Below, piece after piece: positions 1 to 11,442 of a DNA stretch of 11,442 nt. A program made the translations under genes and the position numbers. The notes below the pieces were generated by a model. That model was not told the DNA's origin and ran no database searches. It saw only the letters and a list, made by a program, of their open reading frames with translations. The stretch covers positions 1 to 11,442 of the forward strand of contig JAPLIF010000106.1 in the NCBI GenBank assembly GCA_026389255.1. The letters run 5' to 3'. The stretch is from Cyanobacteriota bacterium. Its GTDB lineage: Bacteria > Cyanobacteriota > Cyanobacteriia > PCC-6307 > Cyanobiaceae. The first letter of the stretch is position 1. The number at the start of each line of letters is the position of its first letter.

Positions 1-1
1 G

Positions 2-175
2 GGGGAGGCCAAGGTGACCCTGCGCCTGCTGAGCCGCCGCTGCGGGCCCCTGAGCGCTGAGCAGGAAAGCATGATTCGTAGCCTGCCGCTGGAGCGGCTG
101 GAGGCCCTAGCGGAGGCCCTGCTCGATTTCGAGGGCATGGCTGATCTCACCACCTGGCTGGCTGCGAACGCCTGA
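2..175 (+). CDS. DUF4351-containing protein, C-terminal end (partial)
   Basis: The 5' end lies outside the window; 57 codons and a TGA are visible. The peptide carries the typical DUF4351 pattern: a Leu-rich start, RRCGPLS, a helix with LERLEALAEALLDF, then LTTWL close to the C-terminus. In cyanobacteria this domain usually ends Rpn/PD-(D/E)XK-type proteins annotated as recombination-promoting nuclease or putative transposase; the nuclease part would lie to the left and cannot be seen. It converges with the lasso cyclase gene, with only 19 nt between the two stop codons and no evident hairpin terminator, only a loopless palindrome AGCCCGGGCT at 186-195. The family call is firm. The identity of the missing N-terminal domain is inference. 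Confidence 0.75.
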   Translation, partial: GEAKVTLRLLSRRCGPLSAEQESMIRSLPLERLEALAEALLDFEGMADLTTWLAANA

Positions 176-194
176 GCACACCGGCAGCCCGGGC

Positions 195-1781
195 TCACCT
201 CCCTTGCTGATCCAGCCACGCCATCCAGCCGTTCACTTGCTCCAGGGTGCCCAAGGCCTGCAGGGTGCCGATCAGGTGATGCGTCGCGGCCGGTTGGCCC
301 AGCAGCATTTCCACCTCGCGGCGAATCTCCGGCCACTGCCACAGGGCTGCCGCCCTGGGATGCAGGTTGCCCTCCAGTGCCTCCAGCGCTGCGCCTAGCT
401 GCCCGGGCAGCGCCTGTTCCCTGGCGGCATGCTCCGCTTCAAAGCCCTCCCGGTCCTTGCTGGGATTGCCGGCCAAAAATGGCGGCAGAAAGGGGTCAAA
501 CGCCCGTCGGGCCACCAGGCGGCCCCGGCCCGCCACCTCGCCGAACTGCATCGGGTCCTGCTGCAGCAGGGTGGCGATCAGGGGTTCATCCAGCAGGGGG
601 AACGCCTTGCGCAGGCCCAAGGCCGCCGCCAAGCGCGATTCCTCCTCGGCCCGCACCGCCACCCAGGGCGCCAGCACCCGCTGGCGTAGGGAGGTGCGCA
701 GGGGCACGTAGCCATTGATTTCCCAGGGATGATCCTGCTGCAGGTGGGGCCCCAGCCACTGGCGGCCCCGCTCGCTCAGGTGCCGCTCCAGCAGATCGCT
801 GCGGCAGAACAGGCGGGTGCGTTGGTCAATCTTGTGCTGGATGAAGCGCCGGCTGCATAGGGCCAGGCTGCGGCCCAGGCCGGTTTTGATCGCCCGCTTG
901 GGGCTGCCCTCCAGCCAGGCCAGCAGCTCCCGCCAGCGGCCCTGGGCCACCAGATCGGTGGCCACATTGGCGGCGTTGTGGCTGAGGGCCTGGTCGCCGC
1001 CGAAGCCGCTGAAGATCACCGCCGCCCCTGCCGCCTGGAAGCCCGCCAGGGCCGGCAGCATGCCGCCGATCTGGGCCGGCGCCCCCAGCATCTGGAGCGG
1101 ATCCAGCGTCGGTTCGGGGCCTTCAGGGGCCGCGGCCACTCCGGTGCCGCGGCGGTTCACCTGCTCGTTCCTGAGGCCATAAAACGGCCGGAATTGGGTC
1201 AGCAGCGGCCCCTCGCCGCCGCCCTCGTTGCTCCAGGTGTGGATCCGCTCCGGCGCCACCCCCAGGCCCCGCACCAGGCCCCCCAACACCGCATTGGAAT
1301 CAATACCGCTGCTGTGCTCGCAGCCGATCGGCCCCTCCCAGCCATCCAGGGCGCCCCGCAGGTGGCTGAGCAGCCCCGCCCGGATCAGCCCATGCAGGGC
1401 CTCCGGCGCCATCGGGCCGGCTCCCCCCGCCAGCGGGTCGTAGGCGGCCAGCTGGCGGGTGCCATCGGCCTGGATCGCCACATGGTGGGCCCGCGGCAGC
1501 CGCACGATCCGCCGGTAGGGGGCCTGATCGGCCGTTTTGCGGTCGCTGATCAGGGCGGCCAGCCAGGCCGGGTTGATCGCATCGGCGCCCAGGGGGCCAT
1601 GCAGGGCCAGGGCCTCCTCCCAGCTGGCCACCACCGGGGCCGCATCGTCACCAGCGCCGGCGCCGTCCCCAGCCCCCGGCGGCCGCACGGCAAACAGGGG
1701 GCGGCGATGGAAGGCATCGGTGCTGTAGAGCCCGGGGGCCAGGGGTTGGGGGTCACGCAGAAAGCCAGCAGCGGCGGCCAT
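195..1781 (-). CDS. Asparagine-synthetase-like lasso peptide cyclase (C protein)
   Basis: Expected role: adenylate the Asp/Glu side chain of a leader-free core peptide and close the macrolactam with the N-terminal amine, as the C proteins of lasso clusters do. With the start used here it is 528 aa. The PPi loop is SSGIDS at residues 157-162, replacing the usual SGGxDS. The C-terminal half has the asparagine-synthetase pattern EEESR...GLRKAFPLLDEPLI followed by K-D-R-E-G-F. The N-terminus (AGFLRDP) has no catalytic Cys2, so glutaminase activity is unlikely. The start is uncertain: ATG 1781 lies 10 nt past the B2 stop and fits the family's N-terminus; ATG 1817 or 1889 would extend it into B2, and none has a clear Shine-Dalgarno. 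It is the last gene of the operon. Asparagine synthetase itself is the alternative, disfavoured by the B1/B2 neighbours. Confidence 0.85.
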   Translation of the reverse strand: MAAAAGFLRDPQPLAPGLYSTDAFHRRPLFAVRPPGAGDGAGAGDDAAPVVASWEEALALHGPLGADAINPAWLAALISDRKTADQAPYRRIVRLPRAHHVAIQADGTRQLAAYDPLAGGAGPMAPEALHGLIRAGLLSHLRGALDGWEGPIGCEHSSGIDSNAVLGGLVRGLGVAPERIHTWSNEGGGEGPLLTQFRPFYGLRNEQVNRRGTGVAAAPEGPEPTLDPLQMLGAPAQIGGMLPALAGFQAAGAAVIFSGFGGDQALSHNAANVATDLVAQGRWRELLAWLEGSPKRAIKTGLGRSLALCSRRFIQHKIDQRTRLFCRSDLLERHLSERGRQWLGPHLQQDHPWEINGYVPLRTSLRQRVLAPWVAVRAEEESRLAAALGLRKAFPLLDEPLIATLLQQDPMQFGEVAGRGRLVARRAFDPFLPPFLAGNPSKDREGFEAEHAAREQALPGQLGAALEALEGNLHPRAAALWQWPEIRREVEMLLGQPAATHHLIGTLQALGTLEQVNGWMAWLDQQGR

Positions 1782-1791
1782 GGGCTGGGGC

Positions 1792-2196
1792 TCAGAGGGT
1801 GTACAGGTGGGTGCCATAACCAGGGGTGAGCCCCGGGGTGAGCCGTCGCGGCCCATCGGTGAGCCAGCCGTGGGGCACCTTGCGGCCATCCTCGAACAGG
1901 CTCATGCCGAGGTGCAGCTCGTTGGGCACGCCGATCAGATCCAGCAGCAGCCGGCCCGCGAGCGAACGGCTCAGGCAGGTGCTGGCGACTGGATCCTGGC
2001 GGCAGCGGCGACTCAGCAGGCTGCGGATGCGGGCATAGCACCACTGCTGCCGCTGGGGGGAAAGCCGCAGCGCCAGCCGGCGCCAGGGCCGCTGGCGGCT
2101 GAGCCGGATCAACCGGGGCCCCGGCAGGGTACGCACCACCACCCAGATCAGATGGTCGAGCAGGGCGAAGGCCGCCATCGCCAGGGCCCACTTCAT
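1792..2196 (-). CDS. Lasso peptide B2-type leader peptidase (transglutaminase-like)
   Basis: A 134-aa protein with the layout of stand-alone B2 proteins, the cysteine peptidases that remove the leader from a lasso precursor after B1 delivers it. A hydrophobic, basic N-terminal half is followed by the STCLSRSLA motif with candidate catalytic Cys74, then GVPNELHLGM and PHGWL with candidate His109. The family usually shows a His-Ala-Trp motif and a downstream Asp in a Val-Asn-Asp context; here the Ala is Gly and I see no Asp where the third residue should lie, only D114 right after the His motif. The start ATG 2196 overlaps the PqqD stop as ATGA. The reading frame stays open upstream to 2316, but that stretch is only a hexamer repeat read out of frame. 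Family call good, full activity less certain. Confidence 0.82.
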   Translation of the reverse strand: MKWALAMAAFALLDHLIWVVVRTLPGPRLIRLSRQRPWRRLALRLSPQRQQWCYARIRSLLSRRCRQDPVASTCLSRSLAGRLLLDLIGVPNELHLGMSLFEDGRKVPHGWLTDGPRRLTPGLTPGYGTHLYTL

Positions 2197-2516
2197 GGAG
2201 ATACCAATGGCGATACCGATGGCGATGGGGATGGCGATACCGATGGCGATGGCCTTTCCAGCAGCATCGAGCTGGCCAGGGCTTCGGCCAGGAAGGTGTC
2301 CGTCTCCTGGCGGCAAAGGGCTGCCTCCACGTTGTGGCGTGCCACCAGGGCGGTCACCAGGGCATCGCGGCTAAGGGGCTGCTCCAGCAAGCGCCAGATC
2401 GCCGAGGCGGTGGCGTTGAGGTTGAGGTACTGGGCCGTTTCCATGTGGAACATGCACACCTCCCCATCCAATTCGGAGGCACAGACCTCGGGATGGCGGT
2501 ACAGCAAAGAAGACAT
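2193..2516 (-). CDS. PqqD-family RiPP recognition protein (lasso B1/E)
   Basis: A 107-aa protein. Residues 1-89 are a PqqD-type RiPP recognition element: the LDGEVCMFHMETAQYLNLN strand region, then a helical part with SAIWRLLEQPLS and FLAEALASSMLL. Such proteins bind the leader peptide and present it to the B2 peptidase. Residues 90-107 form an odd Ser-Pro/Ser-Val tail (SPSVSPSPSPSVSPLVSP) encoded by a hexanucleotide tandem repeat; PqqD domains normally stop near residue 90. The ATG shares one base with the sulfotransferase stop (TGATG), and the TGA overlaps the B2 start (ATGA), so translation is probably coupled through all three genes. In clusters of this kind a separate B1 and B2 replace a fused B protein. 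Confidence 0.88.
   Translation of the reverse strand: MSSLLYRHPEVCASELDGEVCMFHMETAQYLNLNATASAIWRLLEQPLSRDALVTALVARHNVEAALCRQETDTFLAEALASSMLLERPSPSVSPSPSPSVSPLVSP
2200..2253. repeat. Imperfect hexanucleotide tandem repeat (nine units, GATRSS-like)
   Basis: Nine consecutive 6-bp units on the + strand, variants of GATGGC and GATACC (also AATGGC and GATGGG), with no interruption. On the minus strand they encode the Ser-Pro/Ser-Val tail of the PqqD protein and end right at its stop and the B2 start. The period keeps the reading frame, so changes in unit number would lengthen or shorten the tail by dipeptides without breaking either gene. Confidence 0.9.
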
Positions 2517-3418
2517 CAGCTTGCGAGGGGGGTGGAGAGTGATCGGTCGGTCGCGTAGCCGTAGGCGGCCAGGGTGGGGGCAAAGGCCGCCTGCAGCTGG
2601 CCCAGCTGCTCGGCGCTCAGCCGCTCCCGGCCTTCGCCGCTGCGGCCACTGCGGAAGAAGCGCTCCTGGTGGGGGGAGTTCTCCACGAAGCCGCCGGCGG
2701 CCTCCTCCTTGGCCCGCAGGGCCTCGAAGCGCGTCTCTTCCAGGGCCAGGGCCAGGGCTTCGGGCCCGGCGGCCAGGTTGAGAAAGGTGGCCAGGCGGCG
2801 GAACTGGTGCTCCGGATCGGCCAGCAGATCCTCGTAGCGCAGCGGCAACACGGGCAGCAACCTCTGATCACACCAGCTGGTTAGGTGCTGGTCCCAGCGG
2901 CCTAGGGACTGGCGCACCTGGCTGCCGGCCCGTTTGAGCGAACGCACCATGCAGGCCTGGGGATCCAGCAGGAAGGCCACCGTGCGCTCCAGGTCCCAGC
3001 CCCAGAAATGGCTCAGCGACACCGCCACGTCGGCCGGGTCGCGCAGCACATAAACCACCCCTTGGCAGCCCTCGGTGGGCACCACCGGCCGCCCGCCGGA
3101 ATCCGGGCTCACGAAGGCATCATGCACCTTGTGATACCGCATGCCCTCGCTATAGAGGGCCAGCTGGTGGCCCACCTGGCCCCGCAGCTTGTCGATCTCC
3201 TCGGGCCGCAGATCGGCGCTGTCGATGCCGAGCTGATCATCCAGCCAGTGGCGACTGCTCACAATCGCGCCGGTGGCCAGGTCTTGGTTGAGCCGTAGCT
3301 CCGGGCTCGGGTCGTTGTTTTCAGCTGATTCCAGCTGGCGGTGCAGGGCGGCGATATAGGCCCGGCACCAGGTGTTGCCGGATTTGGGATAGCTGGCCAG
3401 GTAGTAATAGGGCTCCAT
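2516..3418 (-). CDS. Sulfotransferase (PAPS-dependent), putative lasso tailoring enzyme
   Basis: A 300-aa sulfotransferase-domain protein. The 5'-phosphosulfate loop is YPKSGNTW at residues 10-17. The 3'-phosphate-binding motif is VLRDPADVAVSLSHFW around 124-139. A VHDAF segment near 98-102 carries the candidate catalytic His99, LRYEDLLADPE lies near 193-203, and the C-terminal FFRSGRSGEGRE segment is the usual nucleotide-binding loop. Such enzymes move a sulfuryl group from PAPS to a hydroxyl or amine. The ATG directly follows the kinase stop with no spacer, and the stop overlaps the PqqD start, so it is an integral operon member and the RiPP is the likeliest substrate (inference from context). 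A role on a glycan or lipid is possible but not suggested by the neighbours. Confidence 0.88.
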   Translation of the reverse strand: MEPYYYLASYPKSGNTWCRAYIAALHRQLESAENNDPSPELRLNQDLATGAIVSSRHWLDDQLGIDSADLRPEEIDKLRGQVGHQLALYSEGMRYHKVHDAFVSPDSGGRPVVPTEGCQGVVYVLRDPADVAVSLSHFWGWDLERTVAFLLDPQACMVRSLKRAGSQVRQSLGRWDQHLTSWCDQRLLPVLPLRYEDLLADPEHQFRRLATFLNLAAGPEALALALEETRFEALRAKEEAAGGFVENSPHQERFFRSGRSGEGRERLSAEQLGQLQAAFAPTLAAYGYATDRSLSTPLAS

Positions 3419-4435
3419 TCAGCCCACCTCCACTGGCACCTGCACCGGCACTGGCGCTGCCCCTACCGGCGCTACCGCCGCCGCCGTGGCCAGCTCCTGG
3501 CGATCGAGCCACTCGCCCATGGCGGCGATGCCGAAAGGCAGGGTGAGGAAGGCCGCCGGCACGGTGCGCTGCAGCCGTGACAGGGCCATGAAATTCGGCC
3601 CCTCCTGCCCCAGGCCGCGCACGAAGCGCGGCCGGAAGGCCTGGTTGCGCAGCATCAGGGTGTTGGCTTTCTGGGAGAGGATCGGCTGGATCGGGTTGTC
3701 GTCCCCTGGGGACGCGGGCCGATCGTTGGGGCGCCGTTGCTGGATCCGGTAGAGGGCCGCCAGGGGGGTGGGCTGCTCGGCGCGGCGGATCTCCTGCCCC
3801 ATCAGCAGATATTTGTGCATCCCCTGGCGAATCGGCGGCAGGGCCCCGGGATCCAGCCCAAAGGCCTTGGCCGCGTCATGCCACAGCTTGATGCGCGGAA
3901 TGCCCGGCAACACAAGCCCATCGGGGGTGATGGCCACCAGATCGTCGGCCAGCAGCCGCCAGCCCCGTTGCATCAGGGCATAGGCCAGGGTGGATTTGCC
4001 ATCGCCGGAGTGGCCCAGGCACACGATCGCCCGGCCGTCCTTCTCCAGGGCATTGCCATGCAGCACCAGCATGCCCCGCTGGATCAATAGCGCCCCCACC
4101 GCCGATCCCAACAGGAAGGTGCGCAGGTCCTGGTCGCTCACCGCCCCGTGCTCCCGGCTCCAGGCGATCGTGGCGCCGCCGCTCACCCGGAAGCGGCCGA
4201 TCTCCTTCACCGTGAGCCGCAGCTCCCCCCGGGCCATCTGCACAAACGGGGTGTCGTGGGGGCCGGGGGCGAGGGGCGGCCAGCCGGCGGGATCCTCCGC
4301 AACAACCTGGACCATGGGGCAGTGATCATCGACACGGCCCTGGCTTGGCGGTAATTCGGGCAGCGGCAGCTCTGCGCTGTGCCAACGCAAACCGAAGGCA
4401 TCGGTCGCAGCTGTGGCGGCGCCATCCGCTGTCAA
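3419..4435 (-). CDS. HprK-like serine kinase, lasso peptide kinase type
   Basis: A 338-aa protein related to HPr kinase/phosphorylase. The P-loop is GHSGDGKST at residues 141-149, preceded by VLHGNAL and followed by RLLADDLVAI (Asp164/165) and IPRIKLW, as in HprK-related kinases. In paeninodin-type lasso clusters a homologous kinase phosphorylates the C-terminal Ser of the peptide or its precursor; a similar role is inferred here from the adjacent B1, B2 and C genes. The start is TTG at 4435, the first usable start after an in-frame TAG. The final residues form a Val/Pro/Ala tail encoded by short repeats. It sits downstream of the longest gap in the operon and directly abuts the sulfotransferase. 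No HPr or phosphotransferase genes are nearby, which argues against a classical HprK role. Confidence 0.85.
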   Translation of the reverse strand: MTADGAATAATDAFGLRWHSAELPLPELPPSQGRVDDHCPMVQVVAEDPAGWPPLAPGPHDTPFVQMARGELRLTVKEIGRFRVSGGATIAWSREHGAVSDQDLRTFLLGSAVGALLIQRGMLVLHGNALEKDGRAIVCLGHSGDGKSTLAYALMQRGWRLLADDLVAITPDGLVLPGIPRIKLWHDAAKAFGLDPGALPPIRQGMHKYLLMGQEIRRAEQPTPLAALYRIQQRRPNDRPASPGDDNPIQPILSQKANTLMLRNQAFRPRFVRGLGQEGPNFMALSRLQRTVPAAFLTLPFGIAAMGEWLDRQELATAAAVAPVGAAPVPVQVPVEVG

Positions 4436-4577
4436 GGCAAAATCCCCGCCAAGGTATAGAGATTCCGAAATGCGTCCCTATCTTTGCATTATTTCACTTT
4501 TCGACTGAAGCCGATGCGGGCCCTTGGTGCGGAAGTCACGACCGGTGGCAACGGCAGCCCCGTTTCTCCGGCCCGGG
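4436..4577. other. Largest gap in the RiPP operon; AT-rich part, no recognisable precursor gene
   Basis: 142 nt between the nucleotidyltransferase stop and the kinase start. The kinase-proximal half (about 4441-4505) is visibly richer in A/T than the rest of the operon and contains AATAAT on the minus strand, a possible -10 element, with no good -35. This is where paeninodin-type clusters carry the precursor gene. All frames on both strands were read: the minus strand gives only a 3-codon ATG frame, a frame ending in FSRKVK whose only starts are TTG or GTG, and a frame with no start codon; the + strand gives a 12-codon ATG frame. None resembles a lasso precursor. Confidence 0.5.
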
Positions 4578-5858
4578 TTATGCCTGGCCGCGGCTGAGGG
4601 CCTGCAGCTCGCGGGTGGCCGCCACCAGGGCCGGGGAGAGCTGCCGCTCCGCCCGGGCCACCGGTGGCTGCCGCCAACGGCGCCGCAGCTGCTCCACCAC
4701 CCCGGCCTTGCTCGCCAGCCGCGGCAGCAGCGCCACACCCCGCACCAAATTGGCCAGCTGGCGGGGCCGGGTGGGGGCCGGACCGCTCCAGCGGCCGCCG
4801 CGGGCCTGGATCGCCAGCCACTGGCGCGCGTGGCCGCGCACCGAGCGATCATCGAGGTAGATCAGCAGGTTCTGCTCCCGGCTCATCAGTAGGGGCAGCA
4901 CCCAGTTGGGCACGGTGGGCGCCGACAGCCAGCGGGTCTGGCGCCAGCCCGCCAGCACCGTGCGGGCTGTGGTCAACAGCGCCGTGCAGCCCAGCCGCCC
5001 GGCGGCCTCGGCCAGGACGGGGTGATCCAGGTGGCCGGCGGCCTGGAGCCACTGCAGATCCACCAGGCCCAGGGGGCCCATGTCCATGTTTTGGCGGAGC
5101 AGGTGGTGCACCAGGCAGTGGAGGGTGAGATAGGGCGGCTGCAGATAGGTGATCCCATCGGGGTCGGGCGGCATGCGGTAGCCACCTTCTTGGCCCCAGA
5201 AGCCAGGGTCGAGGCTGAAATCGCCGCAGAGGTCTTCGCCGGGCCGAAACCAGAGGCTGCGATGCAGTTCAATGAACGCCCCACTGGGATGGAAAAGGCT
5301 GAAGTCATTGACCCGCCACAGCAGCGGATCATCGGGGCGGCGCACCTCCTCGCCCCGCACCCGGAAGCCCTTGCTTTCCAGCAGGGCAAAGGCGGGGCCG
5401 ATCTGCTCCTCCGGCAGCAGCAGATCAAGGTCCCGCATCGGCCGCAGCCACGGCTGCGGGTAGTGCTGCCAGGCCAGATGGGACCCCTTCAGCGCCACCG
5501 CCGCAATGCCGTGGCCCCCCAGGCAGCGCAGCGTATGGAGCAGGGCCAACCGCTGCCGCGCCGTGCGTTGCCGGGCCTGGGCCGTGACCCGTTCCAGCAC
5601 CTTGCGCAGCCCCTCGGGCAGCGGCGCCATCAGGCCGGCCTGCTGCAGCTGATACGCCACCCAGGGGGCCAGGCGCTGCTGGTGCAGCAGGGTGATCAGC
5701 CGTTGGGTGTCCTCCGGCCCAAGCTCCGCCAGGGCCGCCGCCGCCGGAACCAGCTCCTCGCCCGCCTGGGTGAGGGCCAGGAGCAACCGGGTGGGCCGGT
5801 CGATCACCGTGCTGCCTGGCCACTCGCCCGGGGGGAGATCTAGGGGCACGGCCTTCAC
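4578..5858 (-). CDS. Nucleotidyltransferase-family protein (NTP_transf_5 type)
   Basis: A 426-aa protein with the hallmarks of the uncharacterised nucleotidyltransferase family PF14907. These are ALKGSHLAW at 122-130, then HYP and LRPMRDLDLLL around residues 132-148 with the metal-binding Asp143/Asp145, and a later acidic residue in FIELHRSLW (Glu197). The C-terminal half is helical with His-rich segments (LTLHCLVHHLL). Homologues occur beside HprK-like kinases in paeninodin-type lasso clusters (the PadeN position), where their reaction is not settled; transfer of a nucleotide or sugar-nucleotide moiety to the peptide is the obvious guess. The start is GTG at 5858, 37 nt after the exporter stop, with no clear Shine-Dalgarno. 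Followed by the 142-nt gap. Confidence 0.82.
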   Translation of the reverse strand: MKAVPLDLPPGEWPGSTVIDRPTRLLLALTQAGEELVPAAAALAELGPEDTQRLITLLHQQRLAPWVAYQLQQAGLMAPLPEGLRKVLERVTAQARQRTARQRLALLHTLRCLGGHGIAAVALKGSHLAWQHYPQPWLRPMRDLDLLLPEEQIGPAFALLESKGFRVRGEEVRRPDDPLLWRVNDFSLFHPSGAFIELHRSLWFRPGEDLCGDFSLDPGFWGQEGGYRMPPDPDGITYLQPPYLTLHCLVHHLLRQNMDMGPLGLVDLQWLQAAGHLDHPVLAEAAGRLGCTALLTTARTVLAGWRQTRWLSAPTVPNWVLPLLMSREQNLLIYLDDRSVRGHARQWLAIQARGGRWSGPAPTRPRQLANLVRGVALLPRLASKAGVVEQLRRRWRQPPVARAERQLSPALVAATRELQALSRGQA

Positions 5859-5895
5859 AGGGGAACCGGCTCAGGAGGCAGGGGATGATTGGAAT

Positions 5896-7623
5896 CTAGG
5901 CCCCGGTTTCTACGGAGTGCTGGGCCACCGCGGCGGCCCGGTCGGCCGATTGGCGGCGCACCACGGTGCTCGCCAGGGCGATCAGCTCCGCATCGTGGCT
6001 GCAGACCACCACCAGCTTGCTGAGGCTGCGCTCGGCGATGATCTGACGCACCCGCCGGGCCGTGGCCCCATCGAGGAAGGCGGTGGGTTCATCGAGCACC
6101 TCGATCGGTCGGTCCTGCAGCCAGGCCCGCAGCAGCCCCAGCCGGTGGATCTCGCCGCCGGAGAAGCAGTCCATCGAGAGGTTCAGGGGGCCGTCCAGGC
6201 CGCCGGGGCGCCCCAGCAGGTGGCTGAGCTCCAGCTGCTCCAGCCAGTCCTCCAGTGGCTGGGGGGGCAGCGTTGGCTCGGCACCGCGCTGCATTAATAG
6301 GTTGTCGCGCAGGCTGCCTTCGAACAGCACCGCGCTCTGGGGGGCGTAGGCCACCAGCGACCGCCAGCGGCGCACCCCGGCGGGCCCCTCCAACAGCAGC
6401 GGCTCGCCGCTGGTCAGCTCCAGCCGCCAGGAGCTGGCCTCCTCGCCCAACTGGCCGCAGAAGCCATCCAGCAGGGTGGTCTTGCCGGTGCCGGAAGGGC
6501 CGGCCACCACCACCAGCTGGCCAGGGCGCAGCTCCAACGTTTCGGCGTCTCCCTGCCACCGCACCGCCCGCAGCGGCGCCCCGGGGGACCAGCCGTGCAG
6601 GGCCAGGGGGGCGCCGGGATCTCCGAGGCGATGGCGCAGCTGGCGCAGGGCCCCGTAGCCCGGCAGGGCCCCCAGGCAGAGCCTACGGCTGGTGATCACC
6701 ATCCCCAGGCTGCCGGCCGCCCGCTGGGCCAGCAGCAGGGTGGTGGTGATCGCCGCCACCGTGAGGCCGGAGCGGCCCAGCAGCAGCCATATCCCCACCA
6801 CCGCCACCACGAGGGTGTCGCGCAGGGCGGTGAACAGGGCCTGGCGCCGCACCGTGAGCCGCAGCACCTGGCGAAAGCGGCGGCTGTCGCTGGCGAAACG
6901 CTGCATCAGCCAGGCTTCCGCCCCCGCCGCCCGGATCGCCTTGAGGCCATGGAGGCCGTCCCCCACGGTGCGGTGCAGGGAGCCGTTCAACTGGCTCTGG
7001 CGTTGTCCCAGCCCCCAGGCGTCGGAGCGGTGGGCCAGGGCCGCCCCGGCGGCGGCGGCCAACCCCAGCAGCAGGGTGAGGGCCTGGCCCCGGCCCACCA
7101 GCAACACGCCAGCGGCGTAGGTCGCCAGGGCAATGGCGGCCTGGAGGCAGCGGATGCCCTGGTCAAGGGCCAGCACGCTGCGGCTGATGTCGCTCAGCAA
7201 CAGGCCCAGCAGATCGCCGCGCCCCACCTGATCGAGCCGCTGGCTGGAGGCCAGCAGCACCCGCGCCAGCAGGTCGCTGCGCAGGCGATCGGTGAAGCCG
7301 CTGCTCAGCCGCTCCTGGGCGGTGGCGGAGAGGGCCTGCAGCAGGCTGCGCAGGGTCATCACCAGGATCAGCAGGCCGATGGCCGGGCCAGGGGCCAGCC
7401 CTGGGAGGGCCATGCCGGCCCCCCCGCCACCACCGTCAACAGCGCCGCCCAGACCCTTGGCGCCCAGCAGGACCGCCACCGCCAGGCCGAGCCCACTGGC
7501 TTCCAGAAGGGTGCCCAGCAGGGCCAGGCCGGCCAAGCTGAGGGCATGGCGCTTGCCCGCCTCCCGCAGCAGCTGCCACCACAGCCGGATCCCCTCAGCA
7601 TGTTGTGCCTGGAGGGGGATCAC
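5896..7623 (-). CDS. ABC transporter with fused membrane and ATPase domains (RiPP exporter, D protein)
   Basis: A 575-aa half-transporter. Residues 1-320 are hydrophobic with about five or six likely membrane segments (for example 28-54, 80-100, 164-185 and 271-292). Residues 350-575 are the nucleotide-binding domain: Walker A GPSGTGKTT 375-383, Q-loop Gln429, signature FSGGE 487-491, Walker B IEVLDEP near 507-513 and H-loop His543. Export-type half-transporters of this build act as dimers in the inner membrane and serve as the D (export/immunity) protein of lasso clusters. There is no N-terminal C39 peptidase domain, which fits leader removal by the separate B2 protein. The start is GTG 7623; no in-frame ATG occurs before residue 71. 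It follows the ATP-grasp gene after 39 nt. The peptide substrate is inferred from context. Confidence 0.88.
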   Translation of the reverse strand: MIPLQAQHAEGIRLWWQLLREAGKRHALSLAGLALLGTLLEASGLGLAVAVLLGAKGLGGAVDGGGGGAGMALPGLAPGPAIGLLILVMTLRSLLQALSATAQERLSSGFTDRLRSDLLARVLLASSQRLDQVGRGDLLGLLLSDISRSVLALDQGIRCLQAAIALATYAAGVLLVGRGQALTLLLGLAAAAGAALAHRSDAWGLGQRQSQLNGSLHRTVGDGLHGLKAIRAAGAEAWLMQRFASDSRRFRQVLRLTVRRQALFTALRDTLVVAVVGIWLLLGRSGLTVAAITTTLLLAQRAAGSLGMVITSRRLCLGALPGYGALRQLRHRLGDPGAPLALHGWSPGAPLRAVRWQGDAETLELRPGQLVVVAGPSGTGKTTLLDGFCGQLGEEASSWRLELTSGEPLLLEGPAGVRRWRSLVAYAPQSAVLFEGSLRDNLLMQRGAEPTLPPQPLEDWLEQLELSHLLGRPGGLDGPLNLSMDCFSGGEIHRLGLLRAWLQDRPIEVLDEPTAFLDGATARRVRQIIAERSLSKLVVVCSHDAELIALASTVVRRQSADRAAAVAQHSVETGA

Positions 7624-7662
7624 AGGGATTCTTGGCTCGAAAGGGGGTAATCCTGCCCCAGC

Positions 7663-8964
7663 TCAGGGGTGCGGCCCTGCCGCGTTGCGGTCATCGAGGT
7701 GCTCCCACTGCTGGGGCACCAGCATCCCAAAGCCGCTGTTGCCTTCCAGCAGCAGGGGGTGCGGGGCGGCGGGAATCCAGTCCCAGGCCACCGCATCGAT
7801 CGGCGGCAGAGTTTGGTGCATGGCGATGGAGGCCTCCAGGCAGGCCACCAGCTCCGGCGGATGCCGGGCCGCCAGGGCCTGCCATGGCTCAAGGGCCTGC
7901 CGCTGGATCTCTGTGAGCCGGCCAGCGGCCAGCGGCAGCAGGCGCCCCTGGAGATCGATGAAGGCCACCGGGCCTTGTTGGCCTGGCTCGGAGGCGCCGG
8001 CGGGCAGGGGCACCTCCAACCAGGTGTGCCCCACGGTCGGCGCGGCGGTGGGGGTGGCCCGCTGGGTGATCACCCGCACCACCACGGCCGGATCCGTGGG
8101 CGGCAGGCTGGCGGCCTGGCGGAGGTAGGGCATGGCGATCGCCGCCTCGACCCGACCCAGCAGCTCTTGCCAGTGGGAATGAAGCCCTCTCGGCGTGATG
8201 CTCCCTGCGGCCCCAGCAAGGGGGAGGTCGCTTGCCGCGCCGGGGGGCAGGGGGCGGAACAGGCCTTCGGCCTGGAGCTGGCCCTGGCGGCACTGGAAAC
8301 GCACCACCCCGCGGCAGGCGTTGCCGGAGAGCGGTTTGAGCACCAGGCCGGGACCATGCAGCGCTGCGTTCCACCAGGCCGGTATGGCGGTGGAACGATC
8401 GCCGGGGGGCAGGGCCAAACAGGGGCTGCGCCAGGCCGGCGGGGTGTGCTCCAGCAGGGCGGCTTTGTCGGCCAGAAGCCCCAGGGCCGGCCGGCAGCGC
8501 TGGGGCCAGCCCAGCCGCCGCTGGCTGTGGAAGGCGCCGCTGTGGCTGTCGGGCAGCCTGGTGCCCAGTGCCGCCCAGCGATCCACGCCCACGGCCTGCC
8601 ACTGGCGCACTTCATGGGGCTGGAAGCTGTTGAGCCAGCAGGCGGCCAGGGCCAGGCGCCTGGGCAGGGGAGCAGGAGGTGGCGTGGAGGTGGGTCGGGT
8701 CCTGCGCAGGCGGCGGCGCCAGAGCGCCTGCCGCAGGGGGCGCACGCTCCACCAGTGCAGCTGTTGCAGCAGCAGGGGCGGCAGGGCCAGCCAGCTGCGC
8801 AGGGTGCGGGGCCACTGGCCCGCCTCCACGCCGCGCCACAGCAACACCGGCCGCCAGCCCTCCAGGCGCCAGAGCAGTGGGGGTGGACCCAGCAGGCGCA
8901 GAACAAGGGCTCGACGGAACGCTCGCAGCCGCTTGCTCCAGGGCATGGACATGGATGAAATCAT
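7663..8964 (-). CDS. ATP-grasp enzyme, sugar-transfer-associated ATP-grasp type
   Basis: A 433-aa protein. The first 110 residues are basic and rich in Trp, Leu and Arg and match nothing I can name. From about residue 160 it has an ATP-grasp pattern like the sugar-transfer-associated family (PF14397): ADK at 165-167, LVLKPLSGNACRGV near 207-220 with a candidate ATP-binding Lys210, a VVRVIT strand near 294-299, Asp395 in AWDW, and the terminal metal-binding LLLEGNSGFG (Glu407, Asn409). ATP-grasp enzymes join a carboxylate to an amine or thiol through an acyl phosphate; in a RiPP operon it could add an amino acid or modify a carboxylate. It is the first gene of the operon, 19 nt after the zeta-like toxin. 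Start ATG 8964; in-frame ATGs at 8952 and 8946 are alternatives. Confidence 0.75.
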   Translation of the reverse strand: MISSMSMPWSKRLRAFRRALVLRLLGPPPLLWRLEGWRPVLLWRGVEAGQWPRTLRSWLALPPLLLQQLHWWSVRPLRQALWRRRLRRTRPTSTPPPAPLPRRLALAACWLNSFQPHEVRQWQAVGVDRWAALGTRLPDSHSGAFHSQRRLGWPQRCRPALGLLADKAALLEHTPPAWRSPCLALPPGDRSTAIPAWWNAALHGPGLVLKPLSGNACRGVVRFQCRQGQLQAEGLFRPLPPGAASDLPLAGAAGSITPRGLHSHWQELLGRVEAAIAMPYLRQAASLPPTDPAVVVRVITQRATPTAAPTVGHTWLEVPLPAGASEPGQQGPVAFIDLQGRLLPLAAGRLTEIQRQALEPWQALAARHPPELVACLEASIAMHQTLPPIDAVAWDWIPAAPHPLLLEGNSGFGMLVPQQWEHLDDRNAAGPHP

Positions 8965-8983: not shown

Positions 8984-9565
8984 TCAGCCGATCTGCAACA
9001 GCGCAGCCGCCCATGCCGGCAGGGGATCCCGATGCAGTTTCAAGGAGCCGTTCGTGATCGTGAACACGGGAATAAATGGGTCAACGGCTGAGGAGTTGTC
9101 GTAGACCCGCAGCACATCCACCAAGGGGATCGAGGACCGCACCTGATCCAGCAAACGGGGAATGCGGCTGATCACCTTGTCCGCCGGGACGCTATGGCCA
9201 CCTTCGCTGACCCGTCCGGCGATTCGCGCTTGGTTGAGTCCCGTGCTCTCTAAGTGGATTAACACCATGATGACCTGATAGCCCAGGGACTTGGCTCGAG
9301 CGATGAAATCGATCTTGGAGGGATGGGAATAGACCGTTTCAAAACAGAAGCTCACACCCCGCTCCAGCAGCTGATGCCTTTGCCGTTCCGCCAATTGGGC
9401 GGCCTCATAGCTGTGAGCTTCCGGGGCCTCCGCGAAGACGATCCTGGCCAGCACATCGGCATTCACGAAGGGCAGCCCAAGCGGCTCGAGCGCAAGCCGG
9501 TAATAGGTGCTCTTGCCGGCCCCATTGCCCCCCACGAGGATCCACAGCTGGGGACGTTCACTCAA
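8984..9565 (-). CDS. Zeta-toxin-like P-loop kinase
   Basis: A 193-aa P-loop protein of the zeta toxin/AAA ATPase group. Walker A is GGNGAGKST at residues 12-20. VNADVLA near 34-40 holds the Asn-Ala-Asp of zeta kinases, FCFETVYS lies near 73-80, and the ARIAGRVSEGGHSVP segment near 103-117 gives the arginines that bind phosphates. VYDNSS near 154-159 is also usual. Zeta toxins phosphorylate UDP-N-acetylglucosamine and poison cell-wall synthesis; for small chromosomal relatives the target is mostly unproven. The start is TTG 9565, whose TTGA overlaps the TGA of the ParD-like gene by 4 nt, the signature of a co-translated toxin-antitoxin pair. Its base composition is visibly less GC-rich than that of the RiPP operon, which suggests separate acquisition. 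Confidence 0.82.
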   Translation of the reverse strand: MSERPQLWILVGGNGAGKSTYYRLALEPLGLPFVNADVLARIVFAEAPEAHSYEAAQLAERQRHQLLERGVSFCFETVYSHPSKIDFIARAKSLGYQVIMVLIHLESTGLNQARIAGRVSEGGHSVPADKVISRIPRLLDQVRSSIPLVDVLRVYDNSSAVDPFIPVFTITNGSLKLHRDPLPAWAAALLQIG

Positions 9566-9978
9566 GCTGCCGCGGGATCGCAGGTCCGAAACACACCACC
9601 TTCAAAGGTGCCGACACGGATGTCGCCATCGCTGTCGATTCGCTCCAGCCAGCCAGGCCGGCTGGGGCAGGCCTGATAGCGCACAGAGGCCGTGCCCACG
9701 GATGCGGCCAGGCTGCCGCTCTGGCGTTGGGCATCGAGGGCAGCGAACACGCTCTCCGGCGCTACCGCCGCCGCCCGCACCGGTTCCACCCGCAACCGCG
9801 CCAGACCGGCCTTCACATCGAGCAGCAGGTCGGGATCGAGAAGGGCCGCCACGTCCTGGCCCAGCGCGGCCCAGTACTCAATCTGCTGGGCAGCACTGCG
9901 GTGGTGCCGGGCACCGGCCAGGGCAGCCCTGCGCATCAAGTCGTCCTGCAGGCGAACGGGGGAGGCGGATTTCGCCAT
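9562..9978 (-). CDS. ParD-like antitoxin
   Basis: A 138-aa protein from ATG 9978. Its N-terminal 45 residues match the ParD-like antitoxin family (PF11903): SPVRLQDDLMRRAALAG followed by HHRSAAQQIEYWAALG, a DNA-binding unit thought to repress its own operon. The remainder, ending in a strand-rich WLERIDSDGDIRVGTFEGG segment, would contact the toxin. ATG 9978 gives the family-typical start MAKSASPVRL; the upstream ATG 9996 would add six residues and would sit almost at the expected transcription start. The gene overlaps the zeta-like toxin by 4 nt and has a perfect inverted repeat upstream, so it is probably autoregulated. A ParD-like protein paired with a zeta-like kinase rather than ParE is less usual but fits this arrangement. 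Confidence 0.82.
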   Translation of the reverse strand: MAKSASPVRLQDDLMRRAALAGARHHRSAAQQIEYWAALGQDVAALLDPDLLLDVKAGLARLRVEPVRAAAVAPESVFAALDAQRQSGSLAASVGTASVRYQACPSRPGWLERIDSDGDIRVGTFEGGVFRTCDPAAA

Positions 9979-10002
9979 GGACGAGAGATTAGGCATGACT
10001 TA

Positions 10003-10267: not shown

Positions 10268-10554
10268 AAACCGCCAACGCCGCCGCTATGCCAAGCAACA
10301 GCCTGGCAGCCACGCCGCCGGGATCTCCCGCTCCAGCCGCCACAGAGATTCCCCCACGCCATCGGCCGCTCGCCCTCGTGGCTTTCGTAGCGCGCAAACC
10401 CCAGGCACACGAAGGGTTCGGTGGGGGCGCCGGCGCGGCCGTCCTGTTTGCGTTGCTCGCGCACAAACAACAGCACCCTTGAGCCGCGGGAGGCGTGGTG
10501 GATGTAGCGCTGGCCGGTGGGGGAGGACGCGGTAGCGGGTGGAGGGGGAGAAGA
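10268..10554 (-). pseudogene. Decayed duplicate of the DUF3427-type helicase 3' end
   Basis: The minus strand reads SSPTGQRYIHHASRGSRVLLFVREQRK...CLGFARYESHEGERPMA, the same C-terminal DUF3427 sequence as the gene at the right edge, then leaves frame. Where the intact copy has 6 nt after the GERPMA codons this copy has about 14 (+8), so the ending WRLEREIPAAWLP is in another frame. A further 17-nt difference lies nearer the end. The part at 10361-10554 aligns without gaps to 11249-11442 with about 10 mismatches. No start codon or N-terminal helicase domains precede it: just upstream is the DUF5615 stop at 10589. The frame stays open upstream to 10665, but only as an out-of-frame reading of DUF5615. 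It is a non-functional fragment. Confidence 0.85.
10268..10554. repeat. Direct repeat, copy 1 (helicase 3' end)
   Basis: Same orientation as copy 2 at 11181-11442. Both begin at AAACCGCCAACGCC and both reach GGAGGGGGAGAAGA, where the window ends for copy 2, so the true length may be greater. Copy 1 is 25 nt longer through two insertions. The copies flank the DUF433/DUF5615 pair. Confidence 0.9.
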
Positions 10555-10588: not shown

Positions 10589-10942
10589 TCAGGTCTTCGC
10601 TCCAGGACTGAGCAGCAGGAAGCCGGCTTCCGGATGGCTTGAAAACGCCTCGATATCAGCAGCATGATTCAACAGCAGGCATGCCGTTGCAGCGTTGCTG
10701 GCGTTGCCGATGGCCAGGCAGATCACCTTGGGCGGGAAGCCCCGGCTCATGCTGAGTCTGAGAAAATCATCATCCTTCGTGACCAGAAGATCGCCATCCA
10801 GTAGGGCCCGATCCCAGATCGCAAGATCATCCTCACCTCCGAGCCCGATCAGGCGAACATGTCTTGAATAAGGGAAACGATCGAAGAGCAAAGGGAGCAA
10901 CTTCTCTGAAAGGTTCTCATCCAAGAGCAGGCTGAGGCTCAT
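10589..10942 (-). CDS. DUF5615 PIN-like toxin
   Basis: A 117-aa PIN-like protein of the DUF5615/Mut7-C-like group. It shows LLLDENLSEKLLP at residues 5-17 with Asp8, Glu9 and Asn10, GLGGEDDLAIW near 33-43, and LLVTKDDDF near 52-60, which supplies the acidic residues of a presumed metal-dependent RNase site. Proteins of this family are encoded directly after DUF433 antitoxins and are regarded as toxins of a type II system. The ATG overlaps the DUF433 stop as ATGA (4 nt). Like the zeta-like gene it is less GC-rich than the RiPP operon. It is followed within about 35 nt by the decayed helicase duplicate. Confidence 0.85.
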   Translation of the reverse strand: MSLSLLLDENLSEKLLPLLFDRFPYSRHVRLIGLGGEDDLAIWDRALLDGDLLVTKDDDFLRLSMSRGFPPKVICLAIGNASNAATACLLLNHAADIEAFSSHPEAGFLLLSPGAKT

Positions 10943-11169
10943 GCAGCAGGGGTGAGGCTGATCAGCAGGCGTTCACGATCGGCCGCATAGGCCAGGCAGG
11001 CCAGAACGTCGTCATGGGTGATCTGCGGAAAATCCTCAAGAAGTTCCGCTTCATTCATGCCACTGGCCAGATAGCCAAGAACATCTCCCACGGTGAGCCT
11101 GGTGCCGCGAACGCAGGGCTTGCCGAAACGCACAGCCGGATTGGTGGTGATCCGCTCGTGGAGATCCAT
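10939..11169 (-). CDS. DUF433 antitoxin
   Basis: A 76-aa protein with the full DUF433 signature: RITTNPAVRFGKPCVRGTRL at residues 6-25, VGDVLGYLASGMNEAELLEDFP, then ITHDDVLACLAYAADRE. The domain is a winged-helix-like DNA-binding fold and serves as the antitoxin and autorepressor for DUF5615 PIN-like toxins. The start ATG 11169 lies 9 nt after the helicase stop, so it may be read through from the helicase promoter as well as from its own. It overlaps the toxin start by 4 nt. Length and motifs are complete, and the pair looks functional. Confidence 0.88.
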   Translation of the reverse strand: MDLHERITTNPAVRFGKPCVRGTRLTVGDVLGYLASGMNEAELLEDFPQITHDDVLACLAYAADRERLLISLTPAA

Positions 11170-11178
11170 GGCTCAACG

Positions 11179-11442
11179 CTAAACCGCCAACGCCATCACC
11201 GGCAGCCACGCCGTCGGGATCTCCCGCTCCAGCCGCCAGCGAATCGCCATCGGCCGCTCGCCTTCGTGGCTTTCGTAGCGCGCAAACCCCAGGCACACAA
11301 ACGGTTCGGTGGGGGCGCCGGGGCGGCCGTCCTGCTTGCGTTGCTCGCGCACAAACAGCAGCACCCGCGAGCCGCGGGCGGCATGGTGGATGTAGCGCTG
11401 GCCGGTGGGGGAGGACGCGGTAGCGGGTGGAGGGGGAGAAGA
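11179..11442 (-). CDS. DUF3427-type DEAD/DEAH helicase, C-terminal end (partial)
   Basis: Only the last 87 codons and the TAG are in the window; the gene continues to the right. The visible peptide reads SPTGQRYIHHAARGSRVLLFVREQRK, CLGFARYESHEGERPM and WRLEREIPTAWLP, the pattern I associate with the DUF3427 domain that ends a family of superfamily II DEAD/DEAH helicases, often with an N-terminal nuclease domain. The helicase motifs are outside the window, so the enzyme itself is inferred. The frame is intact to the stop, unlike the duplicate at 10268-10554, so this is the authentic end. It is followed after 9 nt by the DUF433 antitoxin. Confidence 0.72.
   Translation of the reverse strand, partial: SSPPPPATASSPTGQRYIHHAARGSRVLLFVREQRKQDGRPGAPTEPFVCLGFARYESHEGERPMAIRWRLEREIPTAWLPVMALAV
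11181..11442. repeat. Direct repeat, copy 2 (intact helicase 3' end, runs off the window)
   Basis: Partner of 10268-10554. The repeat starts at the helicase stop codon region (AAACCGCCAACGCC) and continues to the window end. This copy keeps the reading frame. Confidence 0.9.

Follow-up and report, generated by a model that had tools for sequence, protein, structure and literature searches.

The window analysed here is the entire 11,442-bp contig C237 of genome G000, a picocyanobacterial assembly of 2.1 Mb across 376 contigs that is 79% complete. It carries a compact run of eight genes on the minus strand, read from position 8964 to 195 in the order ATP-grasp enzyme, ABC (ATP-binding cassette) exporter, NTP_transf_5 protein, HprK-like kinase, sulfotransferase, B1, B2 and C. 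With good confidence, this operon supplies the enzymes for the biosynthesis of a paeninodin-like lasso peptide. An earlier sequence-only reading of the same DNA had described eight co-directional genes for a lasso peptide in a probable cyanobacterium; all eight were found, and the origin was correctly called, as the named records with a related cyclase belong to Synechococcus, Cyanobium, Prochlorococcus and an unplaced cyanobacterium. The seven named loci, obtained in one scan with two peptide patterns, came from Synechococcus sp. UW140 metagenome-assembled genomes (MAGs), a Cyanobium MAG and a Lake Pavin cyanobacterium (54-58% identity) and from two Prochlorococcus (28-31%). The term paeninodin-like was chosen because the host is a picocyanobacterium and not a member of the Bacillota, to which paeninodins are restricted according to the available text of PMC13381572.

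The lasso identity of the operon was assessed on its last three genes. B1 (2193..2516, 107 aa), a PqqD-type leader-recognition protein, matched PqqD (PF05402) at 7.1e-14, over the Pfam cut-off. Its top NCBIfam match was the lasso PqqD model NF033536 (53.4 bits, below the cut-off of 80), and among solved structures it resembled TbiB1 (5v1u, 5.7e-9) and one further lasso PqqD protein. A tandem repeat of 6-12-24 nt units (2195-2253) in the 3′-terminal part of the B1 gene encodes a Ser-Pro-rich tail, which is absent from the B1 of six aligned relatives. The B2 leader peptidase (1792..2196, 134 aa) matched Transglut_core3 (PF13471) at 1.1e-8, over the Pfam cut-off, and passed the lasso peptidase model NF033537 with 35.8 bits against a cut-off of 33; one of four relatives scanned with the lasso model scored above its cut-off and three below. 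Cys73 and His108 were invariant in all seven B2 sequences. C (195..1781, 528 aa), a lasso-type macrolactam synthetase similar to asparagine synthetases, matched Asn_synthase (PF00733) at 4e-5, over the Pfam cut-off. The lasso model NF033535 scored it at 41.2 bits (cut-off 525) and the asparagine synthetase model TIGR01536 at 12.2 bits (cut-off 267), both far below cut-off. The sequence-only reading had named a grouping of the cyclase with asparagine synthetases, together with a B2 that failed the lasso peptidase profile, as evidence against a lasso pathway. The lasso model gave the higher score for the window protein and for three of the four relatives scored, but in locus L016 asparagine synthetase was marginally ahead (46.6 versus 45.2 bits). 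At E<=0.001 the database held 189 cyclase homologues, 14 of them 83-93% identical to the window protein. The starts of B2 and C were refined to 2196 (an ATGA overlap with B1) and 1781, respectively, and the profile searches used the longer open reading frames (ORFs) 1792-2316 and 195-1889. The genes from the kinase through B2 abut or overlap, with the sulfotransferase/B1 and B1/B2 pairs overlapping at start and stop codons.

Upstream lie the tailoring genes and the exporter. The HprK-like kinase (3419..4435, 338 aa, TTG start) matched TIGR04352 at 8.1e-15 and Hpr_kinase_C (PF07475) at 2.7e-7 (30.7 bits against a cut-off of 33.3), both below cut-off, and its Walker A motif of the GxSGxGKST type and its DD pair were invariant in six of six sequences. 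The sulfotransferase (2516..3418, 300 aa), dependent on 3′-phosphoadenosine 5′-phosphosulfate (PAPS), matched Sulfotransfer_1 (PF00685) at 2e-21, over the Pfam cut-off. The motif YPKSGNTW was found in six of seven sequences (YPRSGNTW in L017) and KxHD in all seven, and the solved relatives of this protein include SULT1, Teg12/Teg14 and StaL. By analogy with their families, these conserved residues of the kinase, the sulfotransferase and B2 are probably catalytic. The NTP_transf_5 protein (4578..5858, 426 aa), probably a PsmN-like phospho-glycosyl transferase, matched PF14907 at 4e-35, over the Pfam cut-off, and members of its family were also found in L014, L015, L016, L017, L026 and L069. The exporter (5896..7623, 575 aa, permease plus ATPase) matched ABC_tran at 1.1e-16, over the Pfam cut-off, and has homologues in relatives. 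An anti-phage system was considered and rejected; PADLOC, run on the six proteins other than B1 and B2, gave two ABC-type matches only, both for the exporter. The ATP-grasp ligase (7663..8964, 433 aa), a frequent companion of this lasso family, had a single profile match, to PF14397, which was sub-threshold (E 0.016). Its predicted structure adopts a ligase-type ATP-grasp fold, with D-Ala-D-Ala and D-Ala-D-Lac ligases as best structural matches at low identity. The set of four tailoring candidates had been called unusual, a claim that needs correction: the available text of PMC8498205 already describes genes for kinases, nucleotidyltransferases and sulfotransferases close to lasso cores in Bacillota, and that of PMC9266682 the first two, which leaves the ATP-grasp enzyme as the odd one out.

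The window itself holds no precursor gene. The only longer intergenic space in the run (4436..4577, minus strand, 142 bp) contained no precursor ORF and gave no match in a promoter scan. The best leader-profile score in the window was 8.3 bits, against 45-52 for real precursors, and 20 shuffled windows reached 11.4; regular-expression and profile scans against shuffles thus ruled out a precursor in this gap or elsewhere in the window. A family of precursor-like ORFs was found by all-against-all comparison of the short ORFs around the clusters of relatives. Its members share a W-x-x-P-x-I leader, mostly Thr at position -2, Gly or Ser at core residue 1 and a last residue Ser. They occur in loci including L012, L014, L015, L016, L017, L026 (two), L051 (three) and L069, with Synechococcus, Cyanobium and Prochlorococcus among the hosts. 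The gene set is partly rearranged or split in relatives. In L015 the precursor lies about 210 bp after C and the gene order from kinase to cyclase matches that of the window; in L012, L014, L016, L017 and L069 the precursor follows the sulfotransferase gene; and genome G217 has three precursors after its kinase and sulfotransferase genes, on a contig separate from B1-B2-C. The precursors of L015, L016, L017 and L026 are divergent (20-29% identity with the top sequence of the seed alignment), as is that of L069 in genome G285, which has Ile at -2. When the ORFs were read singly, Ser was last in 10 of 14 and also in L069, and one of the 14 (L026:7410-7556) had Leu in place of the leader Trp. Downstream of six precursors, spread over three loci, lies a terminator-like hairpin. 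The Synechococcus UW140 MAG G137 has two different clusters, L012 and L015, and a separate precursor for each. Contig C351 of G000 had at first suggested large precursor arrays in single genomes; this was not borne out, as one to three precursors per genome were found. Through the precursors of relatives, the proposal of lasso biosynthesis made from the window alone is now well supported.

A database profile search returned 1199 relatives at E<=10 among 1367 candidates. The pattern statistics were taken from the best 120 of these 1199 matches, not a random sample, with rows aligned on the leader Trp. The leader Trp and Pro were present in 120 of 120 rows, all of which were aligned on that motif. 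Mean pairwise identity of the leaders was 89%, a value inflated because the best-scoring rows were chosen and a leader-dominated profile favours similar leaders. Core identity was 16% in ungapped pairs, falling to 12% once residue 1 and the final three were removed, and 119 of the 120 cores were distinct. Ser was the last residue in 113 rows and a GPS end was seen in 95. Thr stood at -2 in 119 rows, and core residue 1 was Gly or Ser in 117 (Gly, Ser or Ala in 118). Asp or Glu occurred at core 7-9 in 88 of 120 rows, whereas 1000 core shuffles averaged 27 such rows and never exceeded 41.

This enrichment bears on whether the product is a threaded lasso at all. It could instead be linear, a phospho- and glycopeptide like the linear polyphosphorylated peptides (LPP) of Bacillota, or a macrolactam that is not threaded. 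LPP clusters share with the present set a RiPP recognition element, an HprK-like kinase, an NTP transferase and a capsule locus, as the available text of PMC13381572 describes them; threading cannot be read from sequence, and the first Glu ranges from core 7 to 13. However, LPP clusters lack a cyclase, which is present here, and use a signal-peptidase-type protease (PMC13381572). With the strong enrichment of Asp or Glu at core 7-9 added, a linear or unthreaded product appears quite improbable.

A further regularity concerns lysine, which was found at core 2, 3 or 4 in 116 of 120 rows. In the 115 rows that remained after five without Lys or Glu were dropped, the positions of this Lys and the first Glu covaried (r 0.66, reached by 0 of 10000 permutations), and their spacing was 6 or 7 in 102. 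One explanation is a hybrid of lasso peptide and graspetide, in which the ATP-grasp enzyme would link the core Lys to the Glu, either as a second ring or in place of the N-terminal macrolactam. The modelled ligase-type fold is consistent with it, and the idea gained weight because the ATP-grasp gene, present in all other cyclase-bearing genomes of the nine found here, is absent from G075, both of whose precursors lack Lys at core 2-4. Yet a shifted cleavage site would explain the covariation equally well. If cleavage always followed the Thr-x pair, cores of the GSGK type would require a ten-membered ring, while cleavage that leaves a single residue ahead of Lys would keep most predicted rings at 8-9; a ring of 7-9 residues is given for lasso peptides in the available text of PMC8498205, which mentions one analogue with ten. 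The structural matches of the ATP-grasp protein, being of low identity, say little about its substrate, genome G137 has the enzyme although its L015 precursor has no Lys at core 2-4, and the orphan precursor of G209 has Lys at core 1 and 4 without an ATP-grasp gene. The comparison with graspetides draws on the sub-threshold PF14397 match, the fold and the covariation, and we regard the hybrid as unlikely.

The distribution of the genes was then compared across genomes. The gene set, whole or in part, accompanies a related cyclase in eight genomes besides G000, namely G075, G137 (two loci), G200, G217, G226, G232, G233 and G285, and a precursor was found in all of these nine genomes except G226. 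Among 201 genomes of the host's family, four had the cyclase and six a precursor, with all four cyclase genomes shared; the six include G063, a weak match (E 0.0013) whose ORFs look unrelated on reading. Among 400 genomes of the family, seven had the cyclase, eight a precursor (including the weak match G044, E 0.006) and five both (Fisher 1.4e-8), a test that is partly circular because the seed came from several of these genomes, while the finds in G000 and G217 are not circular. G285 was counted there as cyclase-only, yet carries its divergent precursor. Genome G156 holds an orphan, shortened precursor-like ORF (L054 1501-1623) without a cyclase or ATP-grasp match, likely a relic.

The neighbourhoods raised the possibility of a polysaccharide or glycan-modification locus, in which the asparagine-synthetase-like protein, sulfotransferase, NTP transferase and ATP-grasp enzyme act on sugars and the PqqD and B2 proteins are incidental. 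In two Prochlorococcus loci (L016 and L017) and in L069, the set lies next to genes for Poly_export, Wzc-like and dual-specificity phosphatase proteins; the Wzz profile match is below cut-off in L017 and L069. The L069 genes for the Wzc-like protein, the phosphatase and the kinase are co-directional, with an 11-base overlap and a 10-base gap. The weak sugar-transfer ATP-grasp match points the same way, as do a family-2 glycosyltransferase gene beside the ABC gene in L012 and L014 and two more distant genes, one of the WecG/TagA type roughly 8 kb away from the set in L030 and one for an epimerase at roughly 12 kb in L070. On the other side, none of the ten neighbouring ORFs scanned in L012, L014, L015, L030 and L070 was a polysaccharide export gene, and a lasso-type precursor ORF was found in eight of the nine cyclase-bearing genomes. 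A purely glycan-linked asparagine synthetase is disfavoured because these precursors were found. The sequence-only reading had named a polysaccharide neighbourhood as evidence against a lasso pathway, and such a neighbourhood does exist in the two Prochlorococcus loci and G285; it does not overturn that reading, because paeninodin-like clusters of Bacilli often lie in capsular polysaccharide loci too, as described in the available text of PMC13381572. A pure glycan locus is therefore very improbable.

Contig C351 of G000 itself also carries two precursor-like ORFs, detected with a profile built without G000 sequences (E 1.7e-9 and 2.6e-5), and they are inferred substrates of the window operon; a third candidate, on C182 (E 0.14), was a weak match and was not used. 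Both C351 ORFs share the family leader and depart from the consensus, and transposase and toxin-antitoxin genes surround the parts of the system, as would be expected if the window copy were a decaying, non-functional operon with degenerated precursors. Against decay, the eight enzyme reading frames are all intact and keep their motifs, the database holds the 14 closely similar cyclases mentioned above, and further precursors of G000 may be missing from the assembly because of its incompleteness and fragmentation. Decay is, on balance, doubtful. An IS200-like (Y1) transposase gene lies at L035 1770-2561, and remnants 72-74% identical to it lie at L051 3887-4267 and L052 588-935, beside precursor ORFs in three genomes. 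As a guess, precursors might spread as cassettes, with this element as a possible vehicle.

Several observations weigh against a paeninodin-like lasso pathway. Besides the empty window, the two C351 ORFs have atypical cores: L035:3983-4255 extends 29 residues beyond the GPS motif, and L035:1303-1491 is without a T-x-G junction. The B1, kinase and cyclase proteins score below curated family cut-offs. No B1 or B2 was found in L016, whose contig ends inside the kinase gene. G075, a single contig that is 99% complete, lacks the ATP-grasp gene; G226 has the cyclase without a precursor match, and G209 and G156 have a precursor-like ORF without a cyclase match. Four of the 14 ORFs read singly do not end in Ser. 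Finally, 32 of the 120 rows have no Asp or Glu at core 7-9; Lys occupies core 4 in 27 of these (GSGK and similar), and in 22 an Asp or Glu stands at core 10, beyond the ring of 7-9 given for lasso peptides.

The surroundings of the operon in the window were also annotated. The 3′ end of a DUF2887/DUF4351 gene (1..175, plus strand) lies just downstream of C and is 87% identical to a copy on C351, the contig with the precursor ORFs; the profiles were run on that copy. Next to the operon on the other side, a Zeta-toxin-like gene with a ParD-like antitoxin gene upstream (8984-9996, minus strand) is likely a toxin-antitoxin pair, and DUF5615 and DUF433 genes with a 4-bp overlap (10589-11169, minus strand) form a toxin-antitoxin-like pair. 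A 198-nt direct repeat (10357-10554 and 11245-11442, 95% identical) closes the contig with its second copy and is perhaps the reason for the assembly break there. A plasmid location was dropped, since tblastn of the cyclase against 72,556 plasmid records gave no match.

Gene content, conserved motifs, precursor architecture and co-occurrence are directly established; from these we infer the chemical steps below and their order. B1 would bind the WxxPxI leader of a short precursor whose gene sits at another place in the genome, and the HprK-like kinase would phosphorylate the precursor's C-terminal Ser. B2 may then cleave after the conserved Thr-x pair, and C would link the freed N-terminal residue (Gly or Ser) to the side chain of a Glu at core 8-10. 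The NTP_transf_5 protein could place a sugar on the phosphoserine, the sulfotransferase a sulfate on that sugar or on a side chain, and the ATP-grasp enzyme may add or link something else, perhaps at the core Lys, before the ABC protein exports the product. In the available text of PMC8498205 and PMC9266682, HprK-type kinases act on a C-terminal Ser and PsmN is associated with the attachment of a hexose. The product had been proposed to be both phosphorylated and sulfated: phosphorylation is likely, given the near-invariant last Ser, and sulfation is possible, while glycosylation is plausible.

The operon was compared with published systems as far as the available text of the sources describes them. 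The Bacillota paeninodin type (PadeK/ThcoK kinase) has the same WxxP leader motif, discrete B1, B2 and C, transporter, HprK-like kinase and Ser end, and in part the capsule context (PMC8498205, PMC9266682, PMC13381572). Here, in contrast, the hosts are cyanobacteria, an ATP-grasp enzyme is added, the precursors of G000 and G217 are on another contig, and a near-invariant leader precedes hypervariable cores among the best database matches. Proteobacterial SyanK clusters (Sphingobium) likewise have a kinase acting on a C-terminal Ser outside the Bacillota (PMC8498205, PMC9266682), but the available text mentions no sulfotransferase or ATP-grasp enzyme for them; they were compared by description. 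Pseudomycoidin clusters (PsmK and PsmN) share the kinase and the nucleotidyltransferase-like protein, and a hexose on phosphoserine is reported for pseudomycoidin (PMC8498205, PMC9266682), whereas the present set also has a sulfotransferase and an ATP-grasp enzyme, its glycosylation is a prediction, and its likeness to PsmN is one of description. BsfA of Bradymonas has a leader Ile at -2, as in the G285 precursor, but its kinase BsfK phosphorylates Ser3 and not a C-terminal Ser (PMC10368454).

The combination of a conserved leader with highly diverse cores is known from the prochlorosins, lanthipeptides of marine picocyanobacteria. These come from related hosts but are made by different enzymes and chemistry, and the genomes examined here have one to three precursors each. 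A bolder picture, to which we give little credence, is that picocyanobacteria keep a large strain-specific lasso library, with near-invariant leaders and GPS ends around hypervariable cores served by one conserved enzyme set, in which the ATP-grasp enzyme would make a second crosslink from a core Lys 6-7 residues before the Glu, and the phospho-glycosylated, sulfated peptide would be displayed on or joined to the surface polysaccharide that the export genes next to the set in Prochlorococcus serve. A literature search with little coverage of subscription papers and preprints gave no report of these cyanobacterial precursors, and a cyanobacterial paeninodin-like lasso system with an extra ATP-grasp ligase and hypervariable precursor cores appears, as judged from sequence, to be a variant of a pathway type already known from Bacillota. 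The Lys-Glu spacing makes a specific ring prediction that is accessible to mass spectrometry, and, with near-constant leaders ahead of very different cores, the cores found in nature could serve directly as a library of substrates for promiscuous lasso enzymes. The role of paeninodins is described as unknown in the available text of PMC13381572, and the cyanobacterial branch, which has the same leader motif, C-terminal Ser, kinase, NTP transferase and, in part, capsule context, offers another lineage for studying the function of these peptides.

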